A DNA stretch of 64,000 nucleotides from Erodium maritimum (Eukaryota; Streptophyta; Magnoliopsida; Geraniales; Geraniaceae). Below, one piece after another: positions 30,604-57,278 of this stretch. Each line of letters starts with the position of its first letter. Within the stretch, counting starts at the first letter, position 1. Location of the stretch: contig OY997593.1 in the NCBI GenBank assembly GCA_963921825.1, forward strand, positions 47,290,039-47,354,038. Direction: 5' to 3'. The position numbers and the translations under genes are program-made. The notes beneath the pieces are model-generated. The model ran no database searches. It saw only the letters and a program-made list of their open reading frames with translations, and was not told the origin of the DNA.

Positions 30604-33600
30604 ATGAAGAACAAGGTTGCTGAATCTACAACATTCTGCAACAGGGACAACGAATCAGGTAATTTGAGAATATAGTGTTTGTAGTTTGCGGATTTTTTAT
30701 AGGTGCTATGTTTTCAGAGCGCTTGTGTTTTGCTTTTAGTGTACACCATTTCAAGTGAATAATGAAATACCATGAAATTATTCAACTATGAGATGATTTT
30801 GATCTACTTTTGAGGAAAACCAAGTTGTTGGTTGAGGTTTTGGGGTTTCTGTGTTGCGAGTATCTTGTTTTGCGGACTTTGTTTTTCTGTTTTGCGAATA
30901 ATGAATTCATGTTTTGCGATTATTCTTTACCCAATTTGCGGATAAAGAATTTATGTTTTGCGAGTGTGCGCACTCTGGTTTGAGAAACAGTTTTGAATAA
31001 TCCTGCATTTGATATGTGCGTATGTTTATTGTATGCATATATGCTCATTTTGGTTTGCAGATGTGTTTTGTAGTTGATGCATACCCTGTTATTGTGTTGA
31101 CCTGTTTTGATAATATGTTTTACCTTGTTTGCGGATAGTGAATATATGTTTTGCGAATTAGATTTATGTAGTTGCGGATAGTGAATTTATGTTTTGCGAA
31201 TATATAGTATCTTGTTTGCGGGCACTGTTTTTCTTTCTCGTGAATATGCAATGTTTTTGTATATTGTCTGTTTTGCTGAAATGCTAACCCTTGTTTGCGA
31301 ATTATAGATAAAACTCCGGATACAGTGGTACCTCTTCTTTTAATGGATAGGCCATCCACAGAGGCTGATGTTGGTGAAGGAAATACGACTCTTGCTAATA
31401 TGTTGAAGGAGCAGAAGTCTATTAAGAATAAAAATAAACGAAGACTTTCAATTAAGAAGAAGAAGGTAGCTGAGGTTCGTGAATGTCTCGATGTAGCTGT
31501 CCGACCTGCTATAGTTGGAAAGAAGAGAAGTGGAGAATTAGCTGTTGAGAAGAAGAATGTTAAGCGCACCAAGGGTTGTGAGTTTGATAGAGTTGTCCCG
31601 TTATCTGATAAGGTTGGCGTGGATGCTATTTTGAAGACCAGGTCATCTCCAAAGAGATTGGTTGAGTTGGTGGAGAGTTTGAATAAACGCCAACAAGAAG
31701 CAGTGCGTGAAATTGGGTTTGGGCACATTCTTCATTTGGCTGTGAAGATCATTACAAGCAAGATTGGATATTACCTGGTGTCTAAGTATAACCATCTTAG
31801 CTCATCAATGGAATTGCCAGATGCCAAATTGCGTATCACAGAGAATGAAGTGCATGAAACTTTGGGCATTCCAAATGGTGTGCGCGACGTCATAGTCGAT
31901 AAGTGGGCCACCCTGTGCACTGATGAACTTAAATTGTGGCAGCAGCAGTTCGATACAAAAGACAAAGGCGAGTTCAAGCGTCTTATCACCAGTAAGCAGT
32001 TGGTTGATGAGATGAAGACGCAAATTGAAGGGGGAGATGATTTCAAAAGAAACTTCATGATGTTGTTTGTCACTTGCATGATCGATTCCGGGAATGATGG
32101 TTATGTGAATCAGTCATGCTTCCGTTCTATCGTTGATGTATCTCACATACAAGATTTTAATTGGTGCAAATTCTTAGTCAAGAGACTTGTGGATACAAAA
32201 CAAGCCTGGTTAAAACCCGATGGTTCAAAGAATTTTTATGGACCAATCACTTTCTTGTTGGTAAGTTTATTTATCATTTTAACGTGTTGCATTTTATATC
32301 TAATAAACTGTTATGTTATATTCATGTGACCTGTCTTTTCCTTTCAATGATGTAGTTGTTTTATCTTGATCGTGTTGAAGTCAGCACGTGTGAGGTTCCT
32401 AGGGCGTGGCCGTCTTTGATTGGATGGAATACTGCATTGGTGAACAGAAAAGTCGGTGATGAATTACAGTGTGAGTCATTTGGAATGGGTCACATACGGA
32501 GGGAGGGTCCTCCACGTGTTAGGGAGGAAGATAATGTTGCTCAGCATCCACCACCTAACGTAAATAGGAATAATGAAAGTGGTGATAGAAATGGTGGAGA
32601 TCCGCCGGCCCCGAATACCCCCCCTTTTCATAGTGAAAGGTGTTCTGCAGAGGTATTCTATTATTTAATTAAGTTTTTTGTGGGGGAATTATGTTTTTCA
32701 AATGTACAGTTAGGTTTATTGATTGACTTGTTTTTTTTGCGGATAGTGAACATATGTTCTGCGAATATGCTTTACCTGGTTTGCGGACAGTGAATTTATG
32801 TTATGCGAACAGTGAATATATGTTCTGCGAATAGTGAATATATGTTCTGCGTTTAGTGATATTGTGTTTTGCGGATAGTGCATATATGTTTTGCGAATAT
32901 GCTTTACCTAGTGATGTGGACATAAAATACATCTATTTTAGATGTCATTAGCCCACATTTGTGCTCTTTTTAGTCCCGAGTTAGTATGAAATGATGCATT
33001 TTACTCTCGTATTGTGTATTTGGTCTTGTTTCAGGGTTCATCAAGTTTTCGGGGCAAAAAGGGGCAATTCGGGAGTGAAACGGAGCAAATTTGGAAGTTG
33101 GACATAAGTGTCAGCAACATGCACCAGTTTGTTGCACGCCGTGCAACAAACTGGTGCACTCTGGACAGAGGAGTCAAGAAAATGCACCAGTTTGTTGCAC
33201 GGCGTGCAAGAAACTGGTGCAACTTAAGTGCACCAGAAACTTGCACGGCGTGCAAGCGACCGTGCAAGCGTCAAAAACGCGATTTCCAGTTGCGTTTCCT
33301 TTTTTTTTTATCAGAGTTAACCCGTCATATAAAAGGGAATTTAGGTCAGATTGGAGGGGATCACGAATTGGAGGAGAAAAACACACTTTGGAGCTTGGAG
33401 AACTTGGAGAGAAGATCGAAGCAAGAGATTAGAACATCAAGGTTTTGTGTAATTGAATTGAAACTTGATATTGGTATTACTCTTAATGTTCAATATGAAT
33501 CTCAGTGTTTTATTCATCTCTATGTGTTCTTATTCTCGCACTATGAACTAAACTCTCATGATCTAGGGCTAGGGGTGAAGATGTGATGAGTGGAATTAAC

Positions 33601-36600
33601 TTGTTTGGGTTATGCATTTGTTAACTAGCATTAGGATTTCGTTTATTTAATTCCGTTCGTAATGCTACATTGTCTTGATCACGTATATGTATGATTTAAT
33701 CTTGTTAACCAACAATTGAGAAATGAGGTTAGGAAGAGGAAAAAGGAATTAAATAGCTCGGGTTTTAATCTAAGCCAGAATATGGTTAGACTGACACGAG
33801 TGCAATAGCCATAGGAGTAAAACCCGAAAGTTAGAGGAATTCATAGAATATAATGCTATATACCGCTCTACACCTAGATTAGAGATAATTAGGTGGACCG
33901 AGTATGTTAGGGTCCTAATACGATCGAGAGATGGTTAGGACTATACTTAGAGAATTCCCGTTGCCCTCAGAATAATATTAGTTGCAAATGTATACCGAAC
34001 CCCGTTAAATCATTCATCACATTCGAACCCCGTTAATGTCCTAGATCGCTTTTTATCTCTGATTTACAATCTTGTTGTGACTTTGTGCTTATTTTCGGAT
34101 CATTCATATAATCTCGTTACTCGCATGAATTTATATTTTACAAAACCAAACCAATCACCGTTATAGGAATAGCTTGATTATCGGATTAACTAACTAAAGA
34201 GCTGGTCTAATTTCTCCCTTGGGTACGATATCTCGGACTTAAAACCCGAATACTACTTGACGACCGGTACGCTTGCCGTACCATTCTGAGGGTTAAATCT
34301 CGGAGTGTCAAGTTAATGGCGCCGTTGCCGGGGAGCAACTAAGGCAACTCTGATACGTTTATAATTCGTATTAAGACTATTTCATTTTCTATTTATTTTA
34401 TTTAATTTAATTTTGTGTATGCAATTACGGTCTCACCCCTCTCCGAGTTTGTTAACTACAGATATTTCAGAGGTCGAGAGGAACGCTAGGATTGCAACGT
34501 CAAGGGAAGAAAGCTATGAGTCATCACTCTGAAACGAGTCATCACTCGGATAATGAGGATAACCAGGATGACATTCAAAGGGAAGAAATCCAGACGAGGA
34601 ATGAAAACCCAATCAGGGAGCACAATCGGGTTCCTCCGGGCTTTAATCCATTGTTTGCTCCGGAAGAACCACCAAGGCAAAGTGTAAAACCCGCTTCGCT
34701 TCAAAAGGGTATTAAATTTGCAACCTGAAAACCGTAGGGTAGGTTTCTGAAACAAGTGGTAAAGCAAAAAAAAAAAAACAAAAAAAAACTAGCAGGCCAG
34801 GCCTGTTTCGGCCAGCCAGCCGTTTGGGCCTTGGGCCCGTTTCTCAGCTGAGGCCCGAGAGGGCCGGCCCATTGCGTTTCTGATAAAAGCTGAAACCCTA
34901 GGGTTTCAGCATCAGAAACGCAGCCTCCCTCTCCTTCGATCCTCTCAACCCTCTCGGTCCAGCCTCCCTCTTCCTTCGTCGTCCTCGCCGAACTCCGGCC
35001 GTCCACCACCGTTTCCGGCCGCCACCTCCCTCGCCACCCTCGTCCCGTCTTCTTCTCCCCCATCCCGACCCCGTCACCACCTCCGTCCAGCCACGCAACC
35101 ACCGTCCCCGACCCTCTCATCCTCCGTCGCCGGCCGTCCCCGACCACCATCTCCCTCACCTCTCGGCCATCCTTCGCCGCCGTCTTCTCCTCCGTCCGAT
35201 TCACGACCACACCGCCGCCCCCGTCCCCTTTCCCTCATCTCCGTCCAACCACGCCACCACCGAGCTCCTCTTCTCCGTCCAGCATCGACCACCATCGCCG
35301 TCTCCTTCGTTCTCCGCCCCTCACGCTCGCCACCGTCCAGATCTACCCAGCCGTCGCCCCGAGCCACCACCTCCGGCCAGCTCGGGTCCCCGACCATCCT
35401 CTCCCGTCTCCCTTCTCCTCGTCGCCGTCCGCACGGCCGGCAAGCTCAGCCGAGCCACCACCACCGCCGTTCCCACCGCCGCTCTCCACCGCCGCCACCG
35501 TTCGTTCCCACGGTTAGGCTTCGGCCGGCTACGCCCTTACCGGTGGTCAGCCGGTTGTGAAAACCGAGTCCCCGTTATTTTTCGTTATCGAGTTATTATT
35601 CCCTTTACCGCTATTTTATGTTGTTCTGGATCTGGCTCGGTTTGAACCGTTGTCATTTTGAATCTGAATTGTAAGGAAATCAAAGAAAGTGTGAAGTTGT
35701 TGTTATGTTTCAAAACTAATGAAAATTATCGATTAAAAGGGAAAGTGATTAAAAACGACTTAGATCCGTTAATTGAGAAAACGAAGTTGTTTTAAACGGA
35801 AAGAAAATCAGAGTTTAATTAAAAAGGAACTCTATTTGAAACGAAAAACAATTGTCTAAGGGAAAAAGGGGAAAAAGGAACCGGTTTCGAGTTCTTAAGA
35901 AAAAAATGATAAAACTAGATCGGGTTAAATTAAAAAGGGTTTTAAAACGAAATTCTGTCATTAAAATTAAACTTGAGTTAAGTTAAATCGAAAAGGGAAA
36001 ACGAAATCAAATCGGCTTTAGAAGTGTTTTGGACCAAAATCTCGGGTTTGGAAACGAGCAGAAAGGAAACCGTTTTGTTTTAAAAATCAAAGTCGGAATT
36101 AGATAAAACAAAGGAGTTTCAAAGACGGTTTGAGTTAAAATTGGTTTTAACTGGATTTTGGATCAACCTGAGTTCGGTGCGCGGGTGCTGGAACTCGATC
36201 CGTCGTAATACCACTTTTATCCCGCTCAAGTGGGAAGGACGACTGTCGGATTTAAACTGGACTAATCGTAACCTTTAACTTAACGGCGGAACCGTTATTA
36301 ATTTATGGCTTTCGTGTTATCTTTAGAGTCCGGCTTCGATCGAAGTGAAGCTCGGAGGTAGCAAGCCAGAACGTCAGCAGCTAGGAAGCGTAGCGGTTGC
36401 TCTTCAGTTGAGGTAGGGAAAAGTAGCCGGATCTCGGCCCTGATTAGGGAAAGTTAATAGTAGAATTGCATGTGACACCGGGGTGTCGTGGGTTGAGTAG
36501 ACTTATTTAAATATTAGAAAAGCATGATACAGGATTGTAGCGTTCAAGAGAAAAGCATGTGACACTTAGTAGTGTCGTAGGAGCAGAGAACTTAGCGTTA

Positions 36601-39600
36601 ATTGTTTTACTGGAGGCATATGACCATGCCCGGAGGTTGATTGCTTATTTTGGCGTCTTTGGTGGCCATGAGAGCCCGTGTTGTTAATCGTGTTTGGGTG
36701 GCCATGAGAGCCCGTACTTTATTGTTGGTGTTTTAGCTGGCTTACGAGTTAGAGTCTCGGTAAGTTGCAAGCGTGTTTTATTGTTGAGTTTGGGTGGCCG
36801 TGAGTGCCCGTGGGGTTGTTGAAACCGTGTCTTTACCTTTGGTGTTTTGGGTGGCCTTGAGAGCCCGTGTACTAAGGTTGGTGTCTTTGGCTGGCCTGAC
36901 CGAGTTAGAGTCTCGGGGGGTTGCAAGCTCTCTTTAGCTGGCTTACGAGTTAGAGTCTCGGTAAGTTGCAAGCGTGTTTTATGGTTGGTGTCTTGGGAGG
37001 CCGTGAGTGCCCGTGGGGCTGTTGAGTTCGAGTTTTACTGTTAGTGTCTTGGTGGCCATGAGTGCCTATGAGTGTTGAACCTGTGTTGTTACTGGTTGTG
37101 AACTTGCTTGTGATTGTGATTGTGTTTGTGATTGTGTTCGTGGTTACCGGAGGTTGGGGGCCCGCTTCCTGAAACGGGGGTCCCCGAGCACACGCGTCCG
37201 CATGTTCAGACGGGGTAGGGGGCCCGCCCGCCAATAAAGGGGTCCTGGCCGCGCGTGTGTGGTTTGGGTTCGTGAGCGTACCTTGGCTGGCTTATGGGTT
37301 AGAGTCCCAGTAAGTTGCAGCATTTTCCGGCTGGCTTATGGGTTAGAGTCCCAGTAAGTTGCAGTATTTTCCGGCTGGCTTATGGGTTAGAGTCCCGGTA
37401 AGTTGCAGCATTCTTGGGTTGGCCTGACCGGGTTAGAGTCCCGGGAGGGCGTTCTTGGCAGCTGGTTTGCGATCCTTTGCGATCTTGTTTGGGGTTACGT
37501 GGTTCCTTTGAGTCCTTGGAAGAGGTCGTGATCGTTTTGTCGTGTCTACTTACGTGTTTGAGTGTTGAGTCGTTCGAGGAAGGTCACCGTGGGTGTTTGT
37601 CAGTCAGAGTACTTGGGTTGGGGACAGTGATCCCCGGGGTCGAGTTTGTTGTTGGTGTTACCGGCATTGTCTGCTAATTATGCCGTAGTCAGTCTGTTAT
37701 TCGTGGTGGTGAGCGAACGCTCACCCCTAGCTGCTTTTCCTACAGGTACTGTTCGTGGGACGGACTAGGTGAGCTCTCGAAGCTTGTGGAGCTAGGAGCG
37801 GAGTCCGGGTTTTTACTTTGGGTCTAGCGACGGATACCTCGCCCTTTTGTCCGCTTGTGGGACGTTTTTTTTTGAATTGTAATTATCTTTTGTTGAACTA
37901 AACTGGTATTGTAAAGTGTTTTAATGGAAATGTTTTCAAAGTGCTTTCTTTTTTTAAACGTTCGCGTCCCGAGTTCGGTTTACTGAAATTGGGGCGTGAC
38001 ACAAAGGGCATTGATGGAGTATGGAACTCCATCACTCCGAGGAATTGAAGGCAGCATTGTCGCACCACCAGTCACGAACCCGACATTTGAGATCAAGACA
38101 TCAGTTATCAACCTGGTGAGAGGTGACCCATTCCATGGGAATGCACACGAGGATCCGTTGGAACACTTAACAACGTTTCTCGAGCTGTGTGACACATTCA
38201 GGTATAATGGAGTGTCAAGTGATGCAGTGCGTCTTCGGCTTTTCCCCTTCTCATTGAAGGATAAAGCAAGTAAGTGGTTGCGTGAGATGCCCACTGGGAG
38301 CATCAGAACATGGGACCAGTTAGTGGATGCTTTTATGAACCAATTCTTCCCACCTAAGAAGACAATAAAGCTGAGGCCAGACATTAACACCTTTGCCCAA
38401 CAAGGTGATGAGACATTGGTGGATGCATGGGAAAGATGCTCTGATTTGCTGAGGCAGTGTCCACATCATGGGCAACCACTATGGGTGCAGCTACAGACTT
38501 TCTATTCGAGTTTGAATGAAGTCAGTCAATGTCAGTTGGATTCAGCAGCGGGAGGCTCTTTTGTGCAGTTGACTCCAGAGAACAATGTAGCTCTTTTGAA
38601 CCTGATGGCTTCTAATAGAGTCTGGCAGTCCAGCAGAAGAGGTGCAGGAACTAAGGGGACGGTCAATGAAGTGGAGTCATCCTCAATGAACAAAGTGGTG
38701 GACCAGATTTTGCAGAGTGTGACAAGAAAGTTGGATGCCATGCAGGTACCTTCATTTATAGATCCCATTGATTACATTGAAGGTATTGGAGAACCTCAGG
38801 GAGAAACTGCAAATTTTGTGGGCAACCAGAGGAAGCCAAATTATGACCCGTTCTCCTCTACCTACAATGAAGGATGGAAAGACCACCCGAACATGGCCTG
38901 GAAACCCCAAGGGCAGAATCAGGGTTCTTCTGGGTATCAACAGAGACCTCAAGGACAGGGCTATCAACAAAGACCCCAAAACCAGCAGTATCAGCAAAAG
39001 TCTCAGAATCAGCAGCCCCAGAATGCACCACCACAAGAGTCCTCCTCCAAACTAGAGCAGATGATGCTAACTATGATGACACAGATGAAGGAGGATAGTG
39101 AGCTGCACAAGGCAGCTATGCAAGAGCAGAAGACAGTGAACCGGAACAATGATTCCCGGTTCCAAAAGTTGGAAACCCAGATGAGTCAACTGGCCAATGC
39201 AATGAATTCGAGGGCTCCTGGAAGCCTCCCGAGCAACACAGAAAGGAACCCTAGGGAGAGTGTCAATGCCATATTGTTGAGTAGTGGCCAAACGCATGAG
39301 GAACCACAAGCTGTAGTAGAAGTGGAAAAACAGGAAGTAGAGATCGAGGGGCACGCTTCAGGTAAGAAGGTAAGGGAGTCCGATGTTGAATCAGAAACTT
39401 GGACTCCACCTCCTCCTTTTCCTTCAGTTATTAAGAAAAACAAGCTTGATGATCAATATGCAAAGTTTTTGAATGTTTTTAAGAAACTTGAGATTAATAT
39501 GCTTTTCCTTGAAGCTTTAACTAGTATGCCCAAAATTGCTAAATGCCTGAAAGATTTGTTGGGTAGCAAGAGAAAATTATTAGAGGGGGAAATTGTGAAC

Positions 39601-42600
39601 TTGAATGAGGAATGCTCTGCTGTGTTGTTGAATAAACTTCCACCTAAACTCAGAGATCCAGGCACCTTCTCGATTCCCTGTAAAATAGGTAACATACAAT
39701 TTGACAAGTCCTTATGCGATTTAGGAGCAAGTATTAATTTAATGTCACTATCCATGTTTAGGAAGTTAGGACTTGGGAATGAACCTACACCAACCTCTGT
39801 GACCCTACAACTAGTGGATAGATCTATTAAGTACCCTAGGGGAATCATAGAAGATGTATTTGTGAAGGTTGGGGACTTCATCTACCCTGCAGATTTCATA
39901 GTCTTGGATATGGAGGAAGATCATAGAATTCCTCTTATTATGGGGAGACCTTTCTTGGCTACTTCTAGAGCCCTTATTGATGTAGAAAAGGGAGAAATAA
40001 TAGTGAGATATGGTGAGCAGCAGAAAGTGTTTCATGTACTGAAGGATAGGACTGACTCTAGGAAAGAAGATAAGATCTCGAAAGTTGAGTCTATAGGTAT
40101 TAGAGATGAGCAACAATCCAGAATTCACCAAATGGCTAGTGTAGATCACTCACAAGTTGAATTAGAAAAACCTATTAGAACAGATCAGAAAGTCAAACTC
40201 AAATCTCTTCCTGATAATCTGAAATATGTATATCTGAATGAGAATGACTTGTACCCTATTGTAATACCAGGTGACTTATCTAATGGCAGGGAAGGAGAAT
40301 TGTTGAATGTACTCAGGGAAAAGAGTAAAGTTTTAGGTGAAACTTTAACTCATATTCGAGGTTGTAATCCTTCTTGTTGCATGTGCAGGATCCTGGTGGA
40401 GAATGACCTGAGCTTGGTGGTTAATGTGTGGAAGAAGCCGAAAGAGATTAATGAAGGTGTTTGGGCGAGAGAAAGCCTCGCATCACTTTCCAATGAACCT
40501 TTAAGAGGATAAAACGGGGGGCTTAGGCCGCCCCTTTCGTCGAGCTAACGACGTTAAACAAATGCGCTTGTTGGGAGGCACCCCAACTATGGATTGGAGA
40601 GCGTATGGATATTGACTACACGCGAGGCGCCAGGCTCCTACGGGCTTGATCGGGCGAGGAGTTCTCCATTCATCTATGCACCACAGGATCCCCACGTCAG
40701 TGGCGTACCACACATCGGTTCTTCGAGGGGCAGTTTTCTTACCCTCTTGCTTATTATTGTTTTTTCGCTATTTTACTCCTATATGTCATCTGGTGGGTGC
40801 CGAGCACCTGAATTGTTGTGCTGATAGTATAAACATATAGGACTGTATGGTGGTTGAATCTATGCTAACTGACAAGTGTTGGGTGACATGTTCTGAATAT
40901 TTGTTGTGGGATGCATCTGGTCAATTATGTTAGAGTCGCACTGGGGACAGTGCTGTGTTTTAAAGTGTGGGGTGGGGTGCTTGCATTTCATTTCACACTT
41001 TTGGTCTGCATATTGTGCTGCATTGAAAAAAAAATCAAAAATCAAAAAAATATTTTCTGGTGATATGATTGAGTAAGAGAGTGCAGGATCTTAGGATTTC
41101 GATGATTGAACTGTTACACATGCCAATTTCTTACAGTGTTCAAATAATACATAGATTAGCATGAATCGATTAAGTAGAGTAAGCACATGCATTAAGATCG
41201 CTCTTTTGTTTGCACTCTGAGTGTTTACTTGATTAGTCGTTGTTTCCTGTGATTCATATGCATTGTAAGTTGAGTCTAGAACTACTTGTGTATCCCATTC
41301 GAGACGAAATAGAGTGAGGAACATGGTTAAATTGAGAAAATGATTTTAGGCCATCTTTGGAACGTTTGAGCCAAATCTCTAACCTTACTTTATTTTCTTA
41401 GTCACCCATTTTGAGCCTATGGCCTTTCGTTTCTAACCATTACATTACAAACCTATGTGCCCATCATTTCTTGTATATCCTCATGTTTGAACCCATATTT
41501 CGTGTCTTATGTGCTTCATGAGAGGGGGTATTGGGAATTTATTTGTGAGTTGAGTGAGTACAAAGAAAATGAAGTTCTTCATGATAATGTGCCATTTGGT
41601 TTGTAGAGAAAAAAGAAAGAGCAAATAAGATAGAAATCTCTCTTGTACCTAAGAAATTTTAATGGGTAAGAAAAAGTATACAAAATCAAGAGAAGAGAAA
41701 CGAAAAGGTGAAATAAAAGGGGCATAAAGAAAAAAAAAATTAGCCCAACAAGTAGACTCAAAAAGAGTGTCTAAGGAATCGTTTGGTGAAGACTTGTGGT
41801 GAAAGTAAGCGGGATGTGTGAAAAGTGGTTAGGGGTGTGAGATGAAGCATGTTTGACACGTTTTATTTTATGAGCTTCGTGTTTTAAATCCGTAAAAGCT
41901 TAAGTGTGGGGTGTTGATGTGGACATAAAATACATCTATTTTAGATGTCATTAGCCCACATTTGTGCTCTTTTTAGTTCCGAGTTAGTATGAAATGATGC
42001 ATTTTACTCTCGTATTGTGTATTTGGTCTTGTTTCAGGGTTCATCAAGTTTTCGGGGCAAAAAGGGGCAATTCGGGAGTGAAACGGAGCAAATTTGGAAG
42101 TTGGACATAAGTGTCAGCAACATGCACCAGTTTGTTGCACGCCGTGCAACAAACTGGTGCACTCTGGACAGAGGAGTCAAGAAAATGCACCAGTTTGTTG
42201 CACGGCATGCAAGAAACTGGTGCAACTTAAGTGCACCAGAAACTTGCACGGCGTGCAAGCGACCGTGCAAGCGTCAAAAACGCGATTTCCAGCTACGTTT
42301 CCTATTTTTTTATCAGAGTTAACCCGTCATATAAAAGGGAATTTAGGTCAGATTGGAGGGGATCACGAATTGGAGGAGAAAAACACACTTTGGAGCTTGG
42401 AGAACCTGGAGAGAAGATCGAAGAAAGAGATTAGAACATCAAGGTTTTGTGTAATTGAATTGAAACTTGATATTGGTATTACTCTTAATGTTCAATATGA
42501 ATCTCAGTGTTTTATTCATCTCTATGTGTTCTTATTCTCGCACTATGAACTAAACTCTCATGATCTAGGGCTAGGGGTGAAGATGTGATGAGTGGAATTA

Positions 42601-46689: not shown

Positions 46690-47225
46690 TTTTATTACTG
46701 GTGTTTGTTTTCAAAAACAACAATTTTTTTTAATTGAGAATTTATGATATATTGTTTGAGAATAATCTGTGTACTATTTTCAGAATTTATAAGATCTTTT
46801 GTTTCTGAAAATGCTGTATTGTAGGATAAACAAGTTGTTGGTTGAGGTTATGTGTTTTCTGTTTTGCGAATGTATAGTGTTTAGTTTGCGGGTATTGTTT
46901 TTCTGTTTTGCGAAGAGGCTATCCTTGGTTTGCGAAACCTGGGTTCCTCTGTTTTTTGAGGTTATGTGTTTTTTGTTTTGCGAATATACAGTGTCTAGTT
47001 TGCGGAACTGTTTTTCTGTTTTGCGAATTGTCAATCCTTGGTTTGAGAAAGTGGGGTTCCTTGTTTCAGATTATGCAATATCGTTTGCGAGTTAAATGTA
47101 GGTGACTTTCATATTGATAAGCAGATACTAGTCATACATTCACTGAGAAACTAAGTTTTCAAAACAAAACACAAAAACATAAAAAGACGATTGACATGAT
47201 AATAGGGAAAATATAACTACATCCT
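46690..47225. repeat. Motif island between the convergent Ulp1 gene and small gene 1
   Basis: Several TTTTGCGAAT, TTTGCGGG and TTTGAGAA words occur at 46750-47090. The phrase 'gttttgcgaatatacagtg' is duplicated (about 46861 and 46976). It presumably also holds the 3' ends of both convergent transcripts. Confidence 0.7.
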
Positions 47226-47699: not shown

Positions 47700-48250
47700 A
47701 CAGATTAGTTAACTAATAATAATTCCGCAAAACATATACCTTATTTTCGCAATCCGTATCTCATAATTCTCAAACTAAATGCTAATTTACGTGTACCGGT
47801 ATGTGATACTGTAAGATATTGTAGAGGACACGTGTCAATCGTTATGAAAATTAGACTTATCATGTAATCGATATGATTTGAAAATCAGACGGTTAAATTT
47901 TCACGGTTATATTTCATCATTAGTAAAATCCCAATCGAATGCAAGAAGATCTTATCGCATTTAATGCGTTGGTCAGTCTTATCTCACTTAGTTTTGCGTA
48001 TAAGGACTTGTAGTTTGCGGATGCAGAGATCATTATCTGCGGATACAGACTTGTTGTTTGCGGATACTGTTATTATGTTTCGCGAATTTAATTATTGTCT
48101 GTATTTTGCTGATATGCTCTAGTTGTGTAATTTTCGTTTGCGATCAATCATGTTCTCATTTACGAAATTAAAACTACGTCTTCGAGAATACATAATATGT
48201 CTTTTGCGAATTTATATAGATTACTTTAACAGTAGAATAGGTAGATACTA
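47700..48250. repeat. Motif island between small genes 1 and 2
   Basis: Words occur in both orientations: CCGCAAAACATATA and TTCGCAATC at 47725-47755, then TTTGCGGATG, TGCGGATACA and TTTGCGGATACTG at 48015-48070. The part near 48230-48340 repeats the 3' flank of small gene 1 (47130-47230), which marks the tandem duplication. Confidence 0.75.
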
Positions 48251-48345
48251 ATCATCATTTCATTGAGAAACCAAGGGTTCAAAACACAAAACAAAAACAT
48301 CAAAAGACGCTTGACATGATAATAGTGAAAATACGATTACATCCT

Positions 48346-48694
48346 TCATGGGCCGGATGTGCCTTCGTCTTCTACTATCGCCATGGTTTTGAAGAAATCC
48401 TGAATCTGTTTCAGTGCCGTCATCATCTTGTCTCTGTCTTCGTTAAGCTTTGCAGTCCCGTTCCTCATGTCAAGCACTTCCAGATCATGGATAAGGTTTA
48501 CCACCTTCTCCTCCATCAGAAAAAAAGTGGCATTGGATTAGTGCCAACTTCACTTTGCGAATCTCCATTTCCGTTTCCATAGCCGCTTGCTCCATCTCAC
48601 GCATCTTCTTAGAACGTTCCTCTATGGTACGTTCCACAGCTTCTTCGGTGCAAACGTTAACTTGAGCTCTGGTGCGTTTCCTGTTGGAGGCCAT
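48346..48694 (-). pseudogene. Small gene 2: tandem copy of small gene 1, frameshifted
   Basis: ATG at 48694 opens MASNRKRTRAQVN..., clearly related to small gene 1 but with an extra charged segment. At a run of seven T (about 48525-48531) the frame slips by one base and ends early after 69 codons. Beyond the slip the other frame continues the homology (DRDKMM.ALK.IQDFFKT) to a stop at 48346-48348. Either this copy is broken or the run is miscalled. Promoter and flanks match those of small gene 1. Confidence 0.65.
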
Positions 48695-48785
48695 CTCTTT
48701 TGCAGATCTGGTGCTTTGAAGTTATTAGAGAAGAGGTTTTCAAATTGAAGGAGAGTTCTAGGGTTAAGTATTATAGGGGTGGGGG

Positions 48786-48794
48786 TATTTATAG
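48786..48794 (-). promoter_or_regulatory. TATA box of small gene 2
   Basis: CTATAAATA on the minus strand, about 92 bp before the ATG, in the same context as for small gene 1. Confidence 0.7.
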
Positions 48795-48879
48795 TTGAAA
48801 TCTTGCGGTGGCATCATCGTTATTTCGTTAAAAGTAGAGTTCTAATTATATATAGATTAGTTTACTGGTAAGGATTCCG

Positions 48880-49600
48880 CAAAACATATATATTATTTTC
48901 GCAATCAATAACTCATAATTCTCAAACTAAATGCTGATTTACGTCTATCGGAATGTGATACGATAAGATCTTGCAGAGGACACGTGTCAATCGTTCCCCA
49001 AAATCAGATGGTATGATTTCAAAATCTGACGGTTAAGTTACCACGGTTACAGTACATCATTACTAAAATCCTCCTTGAATGCACCAAGATCTTATCTCAT
49101 TTACTGCGTTGTTATGTCTTTTCACCGCTGTTTGGTTTAGTTTAAATTAATTTTTTAACCCTACAAATCATGTCATCATAGACCTTTTTTTTTAATTATG
49201 TCATGTCACCATAATAGAAAGAGGATTGCCCTATTATCATCAGTGACGATGACGATGATGAGAAAGAGGAGGATAAAGAAAATGTGGAGGAAGACGATGA
49301 TGGGTATAATGGTCATATATGACCTTATAGTTTGCGGATACAGAGATCCTGTTTTGCTAATACTGTTATTTTTTTTCTCTAACATGTTTTTTGCGGATAC
49401 GGACTTGTAGTTTGCGGATTCATATATACTGGTTTGCTAATATTGTAAATTTGCCTATTATTATGCCTATTATTATTGACTTAAAGTTCCTAATACAGAG
49501 ATTCTGGTTTGCGGATACAAATATCATGGTTTGCTGATAGTTATATTCTTTTTCGCGTGTAACACAAATCATGGAATCATACATAACTTGAAAGCGAAAT
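48880..49600. repeat. Motif island between small genes 2 and 3
   Basis: CCGCAAAACATATA occurs near 48878, then TTTGCGGATACAG (49330), TTTTGCGGATAC (49390), TTTGCGGATTC (49410), TTTGCGGATACA (49509) and TTTGCTGATA (49530). An ATG/GAT-rich segment (49240-49310) looks low-complexity, not coding. Confidence 0.75.
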
Positions 49601-49695
49601 ATAAATGTATTTAAGGGAAAAGATTTTGTTATTGATTAATAAGATTTGGTTAATAACAGATAAAGGGAAACAAAAGACATTAGGGTTTGCTATGC

Positions 49696-50013
49696 CTATA
49701 CCACTAGTTTCATAGCTTTGTTCACCGCTAAGATGACTTCGGTTATCTTCCTGTTCAGGGCTAAGTTTGCAAGCGCTTCTTCGGAGCTCATGTCAGTGCA
49801 CAGCTGTTCGCCTACTTCCATACCCAAAATTTCAAGCTCAAGCTCAATGTCAGAAAGCTGACGCCCTATTGCCTTGAACTTCATCAAAAACTCCTCATGC
49901 TTGATGAGACGCTTTTGTTTTTTGTCCTTCTTATTCTGCTCCTCTAGCTTCCTTTCGCGTTCGTCGAATTCATCTTCATAACTTCTACGCTTCCTGCTGC
50001 TTGAGGACGACAT
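49696..50013 (-). CDS. Small gene 3: 105-aa charged coiled-coil protein
   Basis: ATG 50013 to the stop at 49696-49698 gives 105 aa. An N-terminal Ser/Arg/Lys patch (MSSSSSRKRR) suggests nuclear import. A very charged helix follows (DEFDERERKLEEQNKKDKKQ), then Leu-rich helices (RQLSDIELELEILGMEVGEQ) and a final amphipathic helix (KITEVILAVNKAMKLVV). The length equals that of small gene 1, and the Ser/basic start plus helical body suggest a distant relationship, though sequence identity is low. Small gene 4 is its tandem copy. Function unknown. Confidence 0.6.
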   Translation of the reverse strand: MSSSSSRKRRSYEDEFDERERKLEEQNKKDKKQKRLIKHEEFLMKFKAIGRQLSDIELELEILGMEVGEQLCTDMSSEEALANLALNRKITEVILAVNKAMKLVV

Positions 50014-50079
50014 TTTTTCCAGAGTAAAATTGGTTATAGGAAGAGTTGAGGGATGAGTGTAGAAGGATACAGTATTGGG

Positions 50080-50088
50080 TATATATAG
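50080..50088 (-). promoter_or_regulatory. TATA box of small gene 3
   Basis: CTATATATA followed by CCC on the minus strand, about 70 bp before the ATG at 50013. Confidence 0.7.
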
Positions 50089-50214
50089 GGGAATATCTAG
50101 GGCATCGTAGGTTAGTGGAGCAATTAATTCTCCTACACGTTTCCACGCTGTCAATATTTGATTGGTCTACCACATACCGGTCCACTTTCCTTTTTGTACG
50201 CAAAAACGAAGTTG

Positions 50215-50400
50215 TATTTTCTCTTTACTTGGTGTTTGCGTATACGATCTTGTAGTTTGCGGATAATTTGATTATGTTTCGTGACTATAACTAAGGACGG
50301 AAGTTTGTGAAAACATAGATTCTAGTTTGCGGATACAGAGATCATGGTTTGCTGATTCTAATAATCTGTTTCGCGTGTAACATAAATAACAGAATTATAT
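50215..50400. repeat. Motif island between small genes 3 and 4
   Basis: Contains TTTGCGTATA (50234), TTTGCGGATAAT (50256), TTTGCGGATACAG (50325) and TTTGCTGATT (50348). Confidence 0.75.
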
Positions 50401-50824: not shown

Positions 50825-50890
50825 TTTTTCAGAGTAAAATTGGGTATTCGAAGAGTTGAGGGTTAAGTATAAAAGGATACTGTATTTGGG

Positions 50891-50899: not shown

Positions 50900-51009
50900 G
50901 GGAACATGTAGGGCATCGTGGGTTAGTGGAGCAATTAATTCTCACCCACGTTTCGACGCTGTCATTATTTGATTGGTCTACCACAAACCGTTTAAATTCT
51001 CTTCCGTAC

Positions 51010-51404
51010 GCAAAAAAAAAGTAGTAAATTCTCAAATCATTTTATATTTTTTAGTAAACGAAATTTGAAATATTCGCAAACAATTTGTTATATTGAATCC
51101 GCAAAACAGATGACCTATATCCGCAAACAGAAAAAGCCAAATCCGCAATCGATAATCTCCATCAGTCGACTTCTTCCTATTTTTACTCAGCGGGGCAGGT
51201 CCTTGTGTCCTTGTCTTGCGTTATGTGTGTACAATATATTATATTAATTTTCATATAAATAAAAACATGTGCAGAAATGAAATTTATTAATTCGGAAAAC
51301 TCAAACAAATGTATCATCAAACAGTCTTTATTTATTCGCAAAACTTATTCTCTATATTTGCAAACTGAAACAATGAAATCCGCAGTTGAAAATATACATC
51401 ATTT
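51010..51404. repeat. Motif island between small gene 4 and the transposase
   Basis: Mostly inverted words: TATTCGCAAAC (51070), ATCCGCAAAAC (51098), ATCCGCAAACAG (51120), ATCCGCAATC (51140) and TTCGCAAAAC (51335). It also serves as the 3' flank of the transposase gene. Confidence 0.7.
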
Positions 51405-54400
51405 CTACTTCTTCTTATTCTTCTTCTTCTTCTTATTCATATTCAGAGGGCAGGTCCTTTTGTCATGGTCTTGCAATGTGCGGCATGTGGCGCATAGCCG
51501 TTTTCGCTTGTTACTAGCATTGATTGCCTTTTCTTTGTTACTGATCATTCTACTCCCAGATCGCAAGCGAGAGCCCTTGGTGTTTGCGATATTTGGTGGC
51601 TGGACAGTGACTATTTCTGTTAATTTGATCCCTGTCACCGATGCTATGAAACTTGTTCTATTGAGTCTATTCTCATTCACTATGTCATCCACCGTCTTAA
51701 CTCTGTATCGATTTAGAGTGTCCAACAATCCTCGAATACTTGAAATTGCTGCATCTTCTGTCCCATTGTTAACCTGTATCATTTCAGTAAACCTGGTTTT
51801 CACTGCGTCCATAACTTCATCGTCCTTCAGACTAGGACCTTCAGGTGCAACACCATTAGAAGACAATGTAGCTGTCAAGTTTGTCTCTTTACACCATCTC
51901 GGGTTTACCAGCGTCCTAGGAATCTTCCTTAACGTTGTGTTTTGCAGCGCAAAGAATATGTGAGAACATATATAGCCCGTTGTTAGAAGCTTGTTGCAAT
52001 TGCACTCAAAGTTGTTTGTACTCATCGTCCAAGTCACCCTGAGTTCCTTACCATCTTTAATAATCGACGAATAACTGACTTTATAGACAATGGTGTCATC
52101 TGCGGTCTCATCCATGCTTGGCAAGCTGCAGCGGTTGAGAGCGTAAACTATATGCTTTTGTATGTCAGCAAACACAGTGTGTGTGTATACGGTCCAAGCA
52201 TCCGCTTCAAACCACGTGTTTGTCTTCAGCACCGGATATGAATTGTAGCTGTGCATCATAAGACTGAAATGCTCACTCCTTTGGTTCTCTATCACCACTC
52301 CACACCGCCAGATCAAGTGAACAAGGTTTAGGTACTGATCTGTGAGTTGTTGATAGGCCCGGTTGGCTGATTCAGACCTTGATGTTGTTCTCATAAACAA
52401 CCCCATTGGGAAATCCCTATGGTATGCTGGGATCCAACTGTGTCGCAGATCGAATATGCCATTGAGCCAAGTGTTGTCCTGCAAATTGAAGTCTTCAATG
52501 ATGCTAGCCCACTCTTCATCAAACTCATCAGGGCCAATAAGGTTGTTGTATACTATGGAATCCAACCTTTTCTCAAAGTCTGTATCATTTGTTATACTTC
52601 CAGGCACCTGTAACATTTTTCATAAGATTTTTAAAGTCGAACAAATAAATAATAGAAATTGACAATACTGTGGCGTATGGATATTTTGTGTTCATAGATT
52701 GAGAAAACAGACATAACAGTTTGAGAATAGATATAAACTCATCGCATAGTAGTTAACTATGAGAACCATATTAAGAATAAAACGTTTTGTGTAAACAAGC
52801 ATTACAAGATGTGGATACAGAGTATATGATTTTCTTATAGAGACTGACCTTAAGACGAATCTTATTCATAATGTGCCACATGCAGAGTTTGTGCTTAGTC
52901 TCTGTCATGACTTTCGGTATTGCAACTTTCATTGCTGGGTCTTGATCTGTCACCAGATACATTGGTTGCTTCCCATTCATCGCTTTCAGAAAAGCGTTAA
53001 ACATCCAAGTGAAAGACTCGATATCCTCATGTGTTACCAGTCCCAGCCCAAAAGTCACAGATTTGTCATAGTTGTCTACTCCTGTAAACGGACAAAATGG
53101 CATCGAGTACCTACAAAACATCAATCGTTAATAAAGAATAATGTTCAAAATTTCTTTTTCAATGGATTAGCGAATACGAGTTATACTTACTGGTTAGTCC
53201 TGTAAGTTGTGTCAAAGGAAACATTATCTCCGTAAAGCTCGTAATTCTTGATAGCTATTTCATCACACCAGAATAGTTTAGTGAGGCTTCCTCTTGGGTC
53301 AACATCGTACTCATAGTAGAACTTGTTGTTGGCTACCTTCTTGACACGGAACTGGTCAAGGATTATCTGAACATCACTTCCTCCAATATAGGCTTTCAAG
53401 TCCCTGTGGTAGTTGTAGAAATCTTGCTTCAAAGCTCCAACATGGCTGGGGCCTCCGCGTGTTTCACTGATTAGCCTGTGTGCCTTTGAGGGACCTATTC
53501 CCGATCTCTCGCAAAAGTTCATATACTCAACATGGTTGCCTTCCATGTGTCGGTTACCTCTCATCTCATGTCTGTGCTCCGCTCCAACCATAGGGTGGTT
53601 ATGACCTTCAACAAATTTTGATACTTTGTATCCCAATTCCTCTTAAACAAATGTGAACCTTATCATTGCTTCACAATTAATTCTTGTGAGCAATCTGTTC
53701 CTCTTTTTTGTAGGCTTTGAAAGTTGAGGACTGTTTTGTTCGGGGATCTCACCCTGTTTGGAGCATACCATGTACTTTAGCTTTATGTTGTTTGTTTTAT
53801 CCTTCTTCTCGGTAGACCTTCTTGTAGTGAATCCAGACAGACTAGCGTAATTTTGGTAGAAATCTATCGCCTTATTCAGTGTCTTGAATTCTTTTCCTTC
53901 AAACGGGGTTCGTTCAGGCTGGCAGGATGGCAAGTATATCCTGGTTCCTCCAGCAGAAAACAGAACAGTGTTTTGGAGATCTGATTCTGCAGTACAATCA
54001 CTGTCTGTGCCTGCAGCTGATATTCATCGAAATAAGGATCAGTTTGAGGATGTAATAATTTCGGATTGCATATACAACACACATAGAATCAGATAGTTAT
54101 AATATACTCAAATTGATACACAGGCAGTAGTATATAGTAACAGGCAAAGTAGATTACTTATGCTTTGCGGAAATAAGCAAGTTAGTTTGCGGATACTGCA
54201 GACCTAGTTTGAGAGTTTGTCATGGAGGAGATTTTATATATTGTTTGAGAAGAAAAAAATATTATATGTTGCTAAATATCGTACAACACAAACTACTGTT
54301 TTGAGTATCTAGGCATTCTAGTTTGCGGATAAAAAAACCACCATGATCATGACATTTTGGTTATCGGAAAATTAGAATTTGCAGCGATTGTAGATTAAAA

Positions 54401-54445
54401 TCAATTTTGTTGAATAGATCTATACTTACATATTGTAGATGACAT
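51405..54445 (-). CDS. FAR1-type MULE transposase, four exons, one internal stop
   Basis: Exons are 54445-54430, 54016-53191, 53110-52849 and 52607-51405; introns are GT-AG and the frame is continuous for 769 codons. A FAR1-type zinc-finger domain (residues about 50-160; FYQNYASLSGFTTRR, VEGHNHP) binds DNA in this family. The MULE catalytic core follows, with acidic residues in VSFDTTYRTN (about 272-281) and TDQDPAM (335-341) and the CMWHI box (357-361). RSESAN comes near 446, then a SWIM zinc finger (C570, C572, C582, H584) and a C-terminal CATCRTLQDHDKRTC knuckle before a Lys-rich tail. The exon-1 start (16 nt) is inferred from frame. Codon 130 is TAA (53643-53645) where relatives have Lys or similar, so this copy makes no full protein unless read through. 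Confidence 0.85.
54060..54429. repeat. Transposase intron 1 with motif words
   Basis: Contains TTTGCGGAAAT (54163), TTTGCGGATACTG (54186), TTTGAGAGTT, TTTGAGAAG and TTTGCGGATAA (54320). Confidence 0.7.
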
Positions 54446-54880
54446 CTCGATTTGTGTATTGTTTGCTGTGTTAAAATCCGACGATATCAATCAATATCTC
54501 CGGCGATCTCTGTTGCGATTTCGACGATCTCACGGTGCGATCTCTGGTGCGATCTCAGATGCGATCTCTGGTGCGATCTCAGGTGCGATATGAGATTTTG
54601 TTTTGGAATCAAGTTTCGAAGAATCGCAGTCTTTTAACCTTGTCCATGAGCTAGATTTCTTCGAGAAAACTCCGATCTAGGGTTGATACTTGGAAAATCG
54701 TAGAGAATTTTTCGAGATACTTTGTAACTCTGTGTTTAATTTGATTTCCTATTTCTTGTTTAGGAACTTTCCGTTTTTGAATTTCGAGGTTTTATAGAGA
54801 AAGTTGGGGTCAATTCGCGCGCTAATCTAGGACCGTCGATATATTATTCGCAATGGACGAACCCGATTCAATTTTGAAAG
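54446..54880 (-). promoter_or_regulatory. Leader and probable promoter of the transposase
   Basis: Upstream of the transposase ATG lies a microrepeat of 'gcgatctc(t/a)g(g/a)t' (about 54507-54590, six to eight units). A mixed-composition stretch without motif words follows. No clear TATA box. The repeat would lie in or near the 5' UTR. Confidence 0.4.
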
Positions 54881-54884
54881 TTCA

Positions 54885-55140
54885 ATCGAAACATTTTATT
54901 TTATTAGCGAATAGATTCTTTGCGTATTTCACATTTAGTTTGCGGATTTTTACTGTGAAGTTTGCGGATTTCATATCTAGGTTGCGGATTTATGAGTTAT
55001 TGTTTGCGGATACCGTCAGTCATGTTGAGAATACAGAAAGCATGGTTTGAGAAAATACAACATCTAGTTTGAGAATATTTATAGATTCATTACGAAAAGA
55101 TGGTGTGTGAAACACCAAACAAAAACATAAAAGAAGACAT
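54885..55140. repeat. Motif island upstream of the transposase
   Basis: Dense plus-strand words: TTTGCGTATTT (54909), TTTGCGGATTT (54930, 54960 and 54981-like), TTTGCGGATACCG (55005), TTTGAGAAAAT and TTTGAGAATA. It separates small gene 5 from the transposase. Confidence 0.8.
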
Positions 55141-55182
55141 GCATGAAAAATTAGATACCACAAATCTTCTTCTGGATGTGGC

Positions 55183-55452
55183 TTAGGGATCTACAGTTAT
55201 TTTCCCGAGGAATTCTTGATACTCCCTCAGTTTCTCAAGCATGCGTTCTTTCGAAGCTCTTTCTTCTGTGTTCTAGGTAAGGTTTTGGTCCGTTTCGATT
55301 TCAGCCAGGAGCTTGACCACCTGCGCATCAATCATCATCATATTGTATTGGATTTTTGTGTATTTGAGCTTCCATAAATGGTGGATGGAAGCCAAACGCC
55401 TGGCTTCATCATCGGCATTCATTCGAGCCCATTCAACATTCATTGAGGCCAT
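55183..55452 (-). pseudogene. Small gene 5: about 89-codon helical protein with internal TAG
   Basis: From ATG 55452 the frame runs 90 codons to TAA at 55183-55185 but has a TAG at codon 60 (55273-55275). The central part (HLWKLKYTKIQYNMMMIDAQ, then VVKLLAEIE) matches the core pattern of small genes 1, 2, 6 and 7. The part after the TAG (KERMLEKLREYQEFLGKI) keeps helical character, so the stop looks recent. The N-terminus lacks the basic patch. Confidence 0.5.
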
Positions 55453-55513
55453 TTTCGTTGCTTTTTTTGAGTTGAAGAGTGAAAGATGTGTGAAAGTAGT
55501 TACTCAGTAGTGG

Positions 55514-55559: not shown

Positions 55560-56110
55560 AGTAATGGGGTTAGTGGGTAGTTACTTTTCAAGGTCAGAAT
55601 ATCAAGTGTTTTATCTAATATTGACGATTTGTATTTCATTGTATTAAATTCTCAAACAATTATAAAATTATCCTCAAAATAAAAATCACAGGCTCTTAGC
55701 AGTATACAATCGTGTCTTGACACGCATCACTTCCAAATCTCACCATTGTCTGATCAGTATCTTTGGTAAATCTCTCTCGAGCCACACGAAATATTTTCTC
55801 AAATATTAAACAACAACGAATTATGAAGTTTGCGTTTGGGAATTTACGAGTTTGAAAATACAAGGCATCTTGTTTGCGTAACCATTGTGTACATTTTGAA
55901 AACTAGGAATTTCTCTCGCGCCACACGAAATATTTTCTCAAATATTTAAGAAGAACGAAATATGATGTTTGTGTTTGTGGCTTTACCAGTTTGAGAAAAC
56001 AAGGTATGTTGTTTGCGGAATATTGTATACATTTTGCAAACTAGGTAGTATATTGTAATATATTGTGTCAATTTTAATGCATATTTAGTTAAACAAAAAG
56101 CTTTTCATTG
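55560..56110. repeat. Motif-bearing spacer, left copy of a tandem duplication
   Basis: Contains TTTGCGTTTG, TTTGCGTAACC, TTTGCGGAATA and TTTGAGAAAA words. Segments here (55770-55880 and 56090-56190) recur at 56990-57100 and 57175-57280, so a unit of about 1.1-1.2 kb including small gene 6 was duplicated in tandem. Confidence 0.7.
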
Positions 56111-56215
56111 ATTCATCTAGAGTCTGAAAGAACAACAAAAAATACGACATCAAACAGAAGAACCAAAAGCCAACACAAAAGACATGAAAACAGAAGAGAA
56201 AGTACAAGCAATCCC

Positions 56216-56455
56216 TTAGGAGCTCTCTTTCACAATGATTCTAAGTGCAGCCCTATACTTCAAGAGTTTGTTCGCCATGCTTTCCCTACAATCCATGTGT
56301 TCTTCATCCGCGTTGGATATGTCTTCTTCTTCCAATTCAGCCATCAGGTTGACCACCCTGTCATGTGCTATCATCAAATGGGACTTGATGATGGACATCT
56401 TCAGATGTCGAAGCTCACGTACGGACACATGATGTTCTTTGGCTAGAACTTCCAT
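56216..56455 (-). CDS. Small gene 6: 79-aa helical protein
   Basis: ATG 56455 to the stop at 56216-56218. The sequence is two helices: RELRHLKMSIIKSHLMIAHD / RVVNLMAELEEED and HMDCRESMANKLLKYRAALR, joined by an acidic ISNADEE turn. It is closely related to small gene 7 and more distantly to genes 1, 2 and 5. An upstream ATG at 56483 opens MESSSKKTQ in another frame, one base off across a run of eight A; the ancestral protein may have started there with a basic tail. Function unknown. Confidence 0.55.
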   Translation of the reverse strand: MEVLAKEHHVSVRELRHLKMSIIKSHLMIAHDRVVNLMAELEEEDISNADEEHMDCRESMANKLLKYRAALRIIVKESS

Positions 56456-56554
56456 TTTGAGTTTTTTTTGATGATGATTCCATTTTAGTGTATGTGATCT
56501 GATAATTCAGAAGAGATGTGAGTGTGAATAATTTTTTATCGGTGATAGAGGGGG

Positions 56555-56565
56555 TATATTTATAG
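56555..56565 (-). promoter_or_regulatory. TATA box of small gene 6
   Basis: CTATAAATATA on the minus strand, followed by CCCC, about 100 bp upstream of ATG 56455 (72 bp from the upstream ATG). Confidence 0.65.
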
Positions 56566-56639
56566 GGGTATTGATATAGAGTATTTGGTGGGACACGTGC
56601 CAAGCACGCACGTAATGTGATAAAAGCACATTTTTGAAA

Positions 56640-57278
56640 TAGAATGTCCATTATTCGCAAAAAGTCATTGTAATTTCCGCAAACTTGTAAACCATTTTCT
56701 GTAAAAAAGAATGATTATTTCCGCAAACAAGAATTTTGTATCTTCAGAATATTAATTTCCGAAATTCAACAGGGTAGAAGACGTGTCAAGCATGCAGTAA
56801 AAAGTAAGGTAATCATGATTTTAATTTTTGATGCGAATACACGCAACCGCCCTTTCATTTCGCGATTTCATTTCAATATCTTCTGTCATCATTGCAAAAA
56901 TCTTTTTGCGCCAAACGAAAAGATTCCCAAATTAATGGCGTCGTCCCATTTCCCCAAAATTTCTGATACCCATTTGATATTTTTATCTTTGGTAAATCTC
57001 TCTTGAGCCACACGAAATATTTTCTCAAATATTAAACAATAACGAATTATGAAGTTTGCGTTTGTGAATTTACGAGTTTGTGAATACAAGGCATTTTGTT
57101 TGCGGAACCATTGTGTACATTTTGCAATCTAGGTAGTATATTGTATTATGTTGTGTAAATTTTTGTGCATATTTACTTAAAAAAAAGCTTTTCATTGATT
57201 CATCTGTAGTCAGGAAGAACAAAAAAAATAACGACATTATACAGAAGAACCAAAAGCCAACACAAAAGACATCAAAAC
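56640..57278. repeat. Motif-bearing spacer, right copy of the tandem duplication
   Basis: TTCGCAAAAAG, TTTCCGCAAAC (56678 and 56727) in inverted sense, then TTTGCGTTTG and TTTGCGGAACC at 57055-57105. The end of this segment repeats the 3' flank of small gene 6 and leads into small gene 7, but solo LTR D was inserted at 57279. Confidence 0.7.

Follow-up and report, generated by a model that had tools for sequence, protein, structure and literature searches.

A family-specific word array with a 22-bp period in the non-coding DNA of a FAR1-type MULE of Erodium maritimum, a candidate VANC-like anti-silencing tag

The window analysed here, a stretch of 64,000 nucleotides of the Erodium maritimum genome (assembly GCA_963921825.1, contig OY997593.1, positions 47,290,039 to 47,354,038), carries a Mutator-like element (MULE) of the FAR1/Jittery type whose introns and spacers hold arrays of the short word TTTGCGRATA, repeated with a period of two helix turns. 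We consider it fairly probable that the word, whose general form is TTTG(C/A)G(A/G)ATA, serves the family as a binding-site tag of its own and that its repeats make up an anti-silencing array of the VANC kind. In the Arabidopsis VANDAL elements, the protein VANC21 binds the motif YAGTATTAY in the non-coding DNA of VANDAL21, where the motifs form tandem repeats in the introns of VANC21 and VANB21 and upstream of VANA21, and the words differ between families, those of VANC6 being other than those of VANC21 (PMC5735166). The same non-coding VANDAL DNA is targeted by RNA-directed DNA methylation (PMC10398659).

Confinement of the word to non-coding DNA

The word TTTGCGRATA occurs at 26 exact sites in the window, 22 on the forward and four on the reverse strand, and all of them fall within the 9.1 kb of non-coding DNA of the MULE. 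Compartments were counted as modelled: a protease-type gene of nine exons, the exons of the transposase, six small reading frames and two insertions of the long terminal repeat (LTR) type, of which the one in intron 3 is called Athila after the label of the initial annotation. Twelve sites lie in the introns of the protease-type gene (2,174 bp) and 14 in the spacers (6,591 bp), whereas none is found in the modelled exons (7,633 bp), in Athila (10,401 bp), in the right LTR insertion (6,508 bp), in the left flank (30,163 bp) or in the two modelled transposase introns (321 bp), the last holding one copy of the word TTTGAGAA. Dinucleotide shuffles of the MULE non-coding DNA gave 0.07 sites on average and one at most. 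When 8-mers enriched in this DNA were ranked without reference to a motif, the top eight were all pieces of TAGTTTGCGGATA or TGTTTTGCG; TTTGCGGATA is the commoner form of the word, with 17 of the 26 window sites, and TTTGAGAA occurs 17 times in the same DNA against 0.97 expected.

The claim of the initial annotation that a short-word array is restricted to the non-coding DNA of the MULE was borne out by these counts, as was the comparison with shuffled sequence that it had proposed, the density being nil outside the element and in the nested elements. Of the places that it named, introns 1, 3 and 6 and the spacers do carry the array; the transposase intron does not, and the sites near 54164-54322 are situated 5′ of the exons that code for the transposase rather than inside the modelled introns. 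Forward arrays occupy intron 1 (30663..31303), intron 3 to the left of Athila (32736..32911, in 22-bp rows) and to its right (43318..43652), intron 6 (45732..45988) and the DNA 3′ of the protease-type gene (46755..47093). Further forward sites are found in the spacers among the small reading frames (47993..50335) and 5′ of the transposase coding exons (54164..55075), with looser TTTGCG sites in the right spacer (55829..57108), and sites in the opposite orientation lie 3′ of the transposase gene (51009..51342) and in the right spacer (56656..56727).

The two-turn period and the build of the arrays

Same-strand copies of TTTGCG are spaced by 22 bp in 21 cases, by 21 bp in five, by 44 bp in 13 and by 66 bp in nine. 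Recurrence of 5-mers at a lag of 22 in the MULE non-coding DNA reaches 188, the mean per lag being 28.4, and elsewhere stays near or below the mean of the lags (given in brackets), with 7 (11.7) in the exons, 23 (29.2) in Athila, 11 (25.3) in the right insertion and 74 (71.7) in the flank. The arrays are periodic, 22 bp corresponding to two turns of the helix. Helical periodicity, together with the gain and loss of DUF1985, DUF287 and Ulp1, is reportedly treated by Sasaki et al. (EMBO J, 2022).

The 22-bp unit is completed by various spacers, GTGAATATATGT, TGCTTTACCTAG and CAGAGATCATGG among them. The sequence gtgaatatatg, taken at first for the linker between paired words, is merely one such spacer, with five exact copies of which one lies outside the element. 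The word TTTGAGAA was considered as a second, separate motif and rejected, with 10 of its 17 copies standing at 22, 44 or 66 bp (±1) from TTTGC[GT] and hence in the same register, and it looks like a variant of TTTGCGRATA. Athila was inserted within an array, and the 22-bp register runs on across its flanks when the 5-bp duplication is counted once.

The word in family copies and short relatives

In the genome searched (763 Mb, 40 contigs), exon 4 of the protease-type gene has at least 92 matches of 70-100% identity. Forty copies, that of the window included, were taken with their flanks (30 listed matches and ten chosen at 70-85%). TTTGCGRATA lies beside exon 4 in 38 of them, within 1.5-2.3 kb on either side with introns and short exons pooled, and inside exon 4 in none of the 40, so that the sibling MULEs to which the initial annotation had looked for a check retain the word. 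In the window and 29 aligned copies, 205 sites stand in 38,847 bp of non-coding DNA as against none in 70,546 bp of coding DNA, and every one of these 30 copies carries the word. Rows of 22 bp are visible in four printed copies of 76-85% identity, in one of them (L055) downstream only. A switch of motif within the window's own family was considered and rejected, the copies of 70-71% identity being simply without the array in intron 3.

Five short relatives of 0.8-3.8 kb, bounded by the terminal inverted repeat (TIR) word of the family, were found, two at locus L009 and the others at L013, L014 and L015. Exact TTTGCGRATA sites are present in four of the five (4, 5, 8 and 5 sites), in arrays whose spacers differ from those of the window; six pieces of the two large proteins of the window gave no match in the five relatives except for a 32-aa piece in L014. 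The two relatives at L009 (3184-4191 and 4224-5570) are neighbours of each other and of an autonomous copy. Both are packed with the array in inverted copies, with exact sites in the first only.

Genome-wide, TTTGCGRATA counts 7,778 places against 957 for the reversed word. From the first 100 of the 7,778 places listed, four cluster regions and eight isolated sites were fetched; all four cluster regions contain the TIR word, and none of the eight isolated sites comes with an array or a TIR. On this sample, the window word is private to its element family, as the words of the VANDAL/VANC system are.

Private words in other Ulp1-bearing families

A search with the Peptidase_C48 domain, which the end of the protease-type protein resembles, listed 148 places in the genome, and one representative was fetched from each of three other groups (L056, L057 and L058). 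In L057, the word CAATCCTC occurs 22 times in 6 kb, with none of the 22 inside the five reading frames taken as genes, from which two stop-free stretches in overlap with the arrays (410-739, 110 aa, and 4913-5203, 97 aa) were left out; 10 of its 17 close same-strand steps measure 20 or 21 bp. L056 has a 21/42-bp array with 13 partly palindromic half-sites CAA[TA][CA]TGCGC. At 5505-5702 of this locus the partly palindromic word (CAATCTGCGCAGATTG) repeats every 21 or 42 bp, and judged by its sequence it might resemble a dimeric binding site. The single place of the third group, L058, showed no array of such kind. The window word is absent from all three loci; conversely, the L057 word occurs twice in the 16.7 kb of the window MULE (0.2 expected) and once in 20 kb of a sibling, and the L056 word not at all.

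Since the two words had been derived from their own loci, they were tested outside those loci. A longer form of the first, L057, word (CAATCCTCSGCCGA) has 774 places genome-wide against one for the reversed word, and a longer form of the second, L056, word (CAATMTGCGCAGATTG) has 200 against none, palindromic places counting twice. The first 100 listed places of the L057 word, all on C1, form 12 clusters, and ten of these have one of the 33 listed C48 places of C1 no more than 15 kb away (random mean 0.07). For the L056 word the same holds for 17 of the 21 clusters on C1 (random mean 0.12), and two more of the 21 are within 4 kb of other listed C48 places. The clusters of the two words accompany different C48 groups (54-89% versus 48-52% identical to L057), and two further L057-type loci carry runs of seven and four sites at exact 21-bp steps.

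A MULE domain, among the top 150 matches, lies within 10 kb of 11 of the 21 L056-word clusters (random mean 0.07) and of none of the 12 L057-word clusters on C1. At L056 itself one is found as well (C8:11390652), at a distance of 5 kb from the C48 exon, and among the matches listed MULE domains lie 5-9 kb from L057-type C48 exons at two places outside C1 (C7:22398250 and C3:23056282), which makes it likely that the L057 type is a MULE as well. Both L057 and L056 matched DUF1985 (E 2.5e-16 and 1.8e-13) and the VANC21 chain 9lnj (E 2.1e-8 and 6.4e-10), so that their proteins are relatives of the Arabidopsis anti-silencing protein. The DUF1985 domains of the two are 45% identical, yet the words are different.

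The layout of the window element resembles that of L056 and L057, with a gene with a C48-type end, small frames, arrays in between and a transposase on the other strand; the small frames, however, share a strand with the C48 gene at L056 and L057, whereas in the window they stand on the opposite one. Small frames of 130-144 aa are found beside the arrays at 4328-4759 and 5019-5408 of L056 and at 4456-4857 of L057. Those of L056 (first copy) and L057 are 82% alike and have no detectable relation to the small frames of the window.

These families bear on two other explanations of the word. One would make it a binding site of the FAR1-type transposase, with sites of the subterminal type promoting transposition. 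The left end of the element does hold two copies of GGTGCGAACC, so that the core TGCGAA is common to one form of the word, and the short relatives keep the TIR along with the word in four of five cases. The sites of the window, however, are scattered through introns and spacers over a length of 26 kb (about 16 kb with Athila subtracted), the first 490 bp of the element contain neither TTTGCG nor TTTGAGAA, the commoner form TTTGCGGATA is without TGCGAA, and L056 and L057 combine a closely similar period with unrelated words next to proteins of the VANC21 type. We regard transposase sites as an improbable explanation.

Sites of a host factor, or a signal in the structure of the DNA (enhancer, splicing aid, nucleosome phasing or insulator) serving the expression of genes with long introns, appear still less probable by a clear measure. 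Such an origin would suit arrays located in introns and near the starts and ends of genes, but a common factor would favour one word for all families, whereas each family has its own, and four of the five short relatives also keep the word. Nucleosome phasing would favour a period of about 10 bp with AT steps and not a long word every 22 bp, which counts against the phasing variant.

Proteins of the window element

The transposase (51402..54023, reverse strand, coding exons 53191-54023, 52849-53110 and 51402-52607) matches PF03101 (FAR1, E 1.8e-11) and PF10551 (MULE, E 1e-21), and the position of the FAR1 DNA-binding domain N-terminal of the MULE domain places it in the FAR1/Jittery type. Its C terminus gave no SWIM or CCHC match in Pfam at E 0.1, with a C-x-C ... 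C-x-H pattern readable in the last exon. The large protein of the protease-type gene matches Peptidase_C48 at its end with E 8.7e-4 and 19.6 bits, just below the cut-off of 20.7, and the contexts of the His and Cys residues are readable. A search with the protein of exons 1-4 against a large protein collection returned 7,405 candidates, none of them at E 0.001.

Six small reading frames of one diverged family, about 60-105 aa long and helix-rich, some of them broken, lie on the reverse strand (47226-47543, 48345-48695, 49696-50014, 50505-50826, 55173-55454 and 56215-56455), several of them duplicated in tandem in the stretch that separates the protease gene from the transposase gene. A seventh is partly contained in 63792-64000 (reverse strand). 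Two of these frames, scanned against Pfam, had no match above cut-off. As read from their sequence, these small helical proteins might read the word together with the large protein or in competition with it.

Weighing the evidence for a tag

The evidence for selection on the word is mixed. Among units 22 or 44 bp from TTTGCG, the ten motif columns agree at 0.52 and the twelve spacer columns at 0.34 (280 comparisons). In paralogous segments of the window (nine pairs, each compared in both directions, the word being taken in a loose 8-bp form), 377 of 408 motif positions are identical (0.924) versus 3316 of 4030 in other non-coding DNA (0.823), and in six distant copies the motif is identical at 0.876 versus 0.827. 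Among 30 close copies, non-CpG positions of the motif have a variability of 0.0076 versus 0.0203. The preservation of CpGs, which the window counts (26 intact versus three decayed) had suggested as a footprint of hypomethylation, found no support in the 30-copy alignment and was rejected as such. Given these mixed tests, we claim no methylation footprint and no purifying selection on the protein.

On these figures the arrays could also be neutral minisatellites, functionless products of slippage and segmental duplication of a 22-bp unit in coding-free DNA, and coding constraint alone would exclude the word from exons as well. The blocks common to introns 1 and 3 and to the spacers fit such an origin, as does motif variability among close copies that is not reduced overall. 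The word and the period, however, persist where the spacers change from unit to unit and from one family member to another, the motif columns are better kept in the paralogous segments and in five of the six distant copies, and three families share the same architecture and a 20-22-bp period with private words. A neutral origin thus seems unlikely to us.

The VANC-like tag has points of its own to answer. Large blocks are common to introns 1 and 3, and also to different spacers, so the array is spread, at least in part, by segmental duplication. The eight consensus motif sites of the 30 close copies are overall not less variable than random windows (fraction 0.35), variability at CpGs is higher inside the motif (0.055) than in the remaining non-coding DNA (0.032), and codon positions 1 and 2 vary as much as position 3, so that no selection on the protein is visible. 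One of the six distant copies, L051, shows the opposite of the trend; the two most distant copies, L046 and L047 (70-71%), have a short intron 3 and no array, which may be the state before array growth or an array loss, and the second short relative at L009 (L009b) has the TIR with no exact site and ten looser ones. The transposase of the window has an in-frame stop near 53640, and a 1-bp departure from the other aligned copies breaks the protease-type gene in exon 5; with breaks in both large genes the window copy is probably dead, and the argument applies to the family. The large protein had neither a Pfam DUF1985 match at E 1 nor a VANC21 match in a PDB search, its profile did not match those of the two DUF1985 families significantly (hhalign P 0.38), and structure models of exon 2 and its core reached a pLDDT (predicted local distance difference test) of 44 and 43, which is unusable.

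On balance, a VANC-like, family-specific target tag is well supported at the level of sequence, by the confinement to non-coding DNA, the period, the retention in siblings and short relatives and the private words beside relatives of VANC21, and by analogy the window array likely works as VANC target arrays do. The initial annotation had gone further, proposing that a FAR1-type MULE evolved a sequence-specific tag of its own that is read by one of its proteins. Circumstantial support for the tag is strong; that the FAR1-type element evolved the system itself is what we infer, and VANC similarity was not detectable in the protein.

Organization of the element

The element begins with the left TIR GGAGAGCAATCAGGTGCGAACC... 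(30167..30191, forward strand), which is preceded by a (TA)n run. Its inverted partner, the related end GGGACGCTATCAGGTGCGAACC, closes a sibling copy at C1:21371813, and similar ends occur in L009, L013, L014 and L015; the inverted ends are short, about 25 bp, and common to the copies. The protease-type gene (30604..46677, forward strand) was modelled from GT..AG borders, open frames and the copy alignment, with exons at 30604-30658, 31308-32260, 32356-32652, 43806-45208 and 45298-45476 (exons 1-5) and at 45568-45666, 45989-46126, 46224-46418 and 46498-46677 (exons 6-9). Athila occupies 32912..43312, with LTRs 98.8% alike and a 5-bp duplication CCTAG. The second LTR-type insertion (57284..63791, 5-bp duplication AAAAC) is without the motif, and the MULE continues after it at 63792..64000, where a 98% match to a sibling ends with the window. 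The element was initially bounded at 30659-57278; it runs instead from about 30167 to past the window end, resuming at 63792 after the LTR insertion 57284-63791. The sibling copy at C1:21345640-21371813 is about 96% alike and carries a different insertion of its own.

The ends of the MULE (30130-30166) and of the short relatives L009, L013 and L015 lie in or beside (TA)n microsatellites. The copies examined lie in (TA)n runs, so that a target duplication of 8-11 bp, as is characteristic of FAR1/Jittery-type MULEs, would be indistinguishable from the repeat, and the association suggests a target preference.

Comparison with known systems

The window element shares with VANDAL21/VANC21 and VANDAL6/VANC6 (PMC5735166, PMC10398659) a tandem short word limited to non-coding DNA, in introns, spacers and terminal regions, that is specific to the family and comes in two variants per family, in arrays gained and lost by repeat formation. 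It differs in its FAR1-type transposase, where the VANDAL class has a VANDAL-type transposase with absent or degenerate TIRs, in its short TIRs of about 25 bp shared by the copies, in its other word, in being known here from its sequence, and in a large protein without DUF1985 or VANC21 similarity detectable at the level of sequence, a homology that L056 and L057 do show. By the two features tested, namely the lack of DUF1985/VANC21 similarity and the FAR1-type transposase with short TIRs, the element does not belong to VANDAL/VANC. FAR1 is listed for that part of the Jittery group which dicot and monocot members make up, and VANDAL stands in another group (PMC6446971).

With the KI-MULE and KIU elements (PMC13317346, PMC2528002), of which the Ulp1-bearing VANC (KIU) elements have been reviewed (PMC13317346), it has in common an Ulp1-type protease end and a protease gene placed in reverse to the transposase; unlike them, it has a transposase of the Jittery/FAR1 rather than the MuDR type, and its C48 match is borderline. 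ULP sequences occur in Jittery-like MULEs of grapevine and melon (PMC2528002), so that the combination of a Jittery-type transposase with an Ulp1-like sequence is not new; motif arrays go unmentioned in the excerpts of that paper. Spm/En TnpA and MuDR MURA offer a likeness in an element-encoded protein tied to methylation loss on its own family, and MURA acts on TIRs (PMC10398659). The window sites, by contrast, are spread through introns and spacers, unlike the subterminal sites of TnpA. Unpublished VANC structures are mentioned in PMC12859917 and PMC8756742. A search of titles and abstracts for FAR1 or Jittery together with VANC or Ulp1, and for MULEs with VANC and Ulp1 at large, with subscription papers mostly outside it, returned no such arrays in a FAR1-type MULE.

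A possible mechanism and its implications

In the mechanism that we propose, a FAR1/Jittery-type MULE family would have amplified the word in its non-coding DNA into arrays of 22-bp period, and a protein from autonomous copies would bind these along a single face of the helix, both in cis and, for the short relatives, in trans. The binding would keep the element unsilenced, as VANC does in the Arabidopsis VANDALs. The most likely reader would be the large protein that ends in the Ulp1-like part and would correspond to VANC in position, with the small helical proteins as a second candidate.

It is quite possible, if still somewhat doubtful, that sequence-specific anti-silencing by two-turn arrays originated, or was assembled anew, outside the VANDAL/DUF1985 lineage, with a reader of a non-DUF1985 kind, and that one plant houses several tag-and-reader systems blind to each other: a FAR1/Jittery-type MULE whose Ulp1-fusion protein, or small helical proteins, would read a private TTTGCGRATA array, and at least two DUF1985 families that would read other words. 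The three families would then provide pairs of a protein and a predicted word in a single genome, with the prediction that each protein binds its own array only, and new short orthogonal DNA addresses for epigenome editing, on arrays long enough to probe the two-turn spacing. If true, tag-and-reader anti-silencing would be no peculiarity of the Arabidopsis VANDALs and would recur among plant MULEs of different transposase lineages, each protecting only itself.

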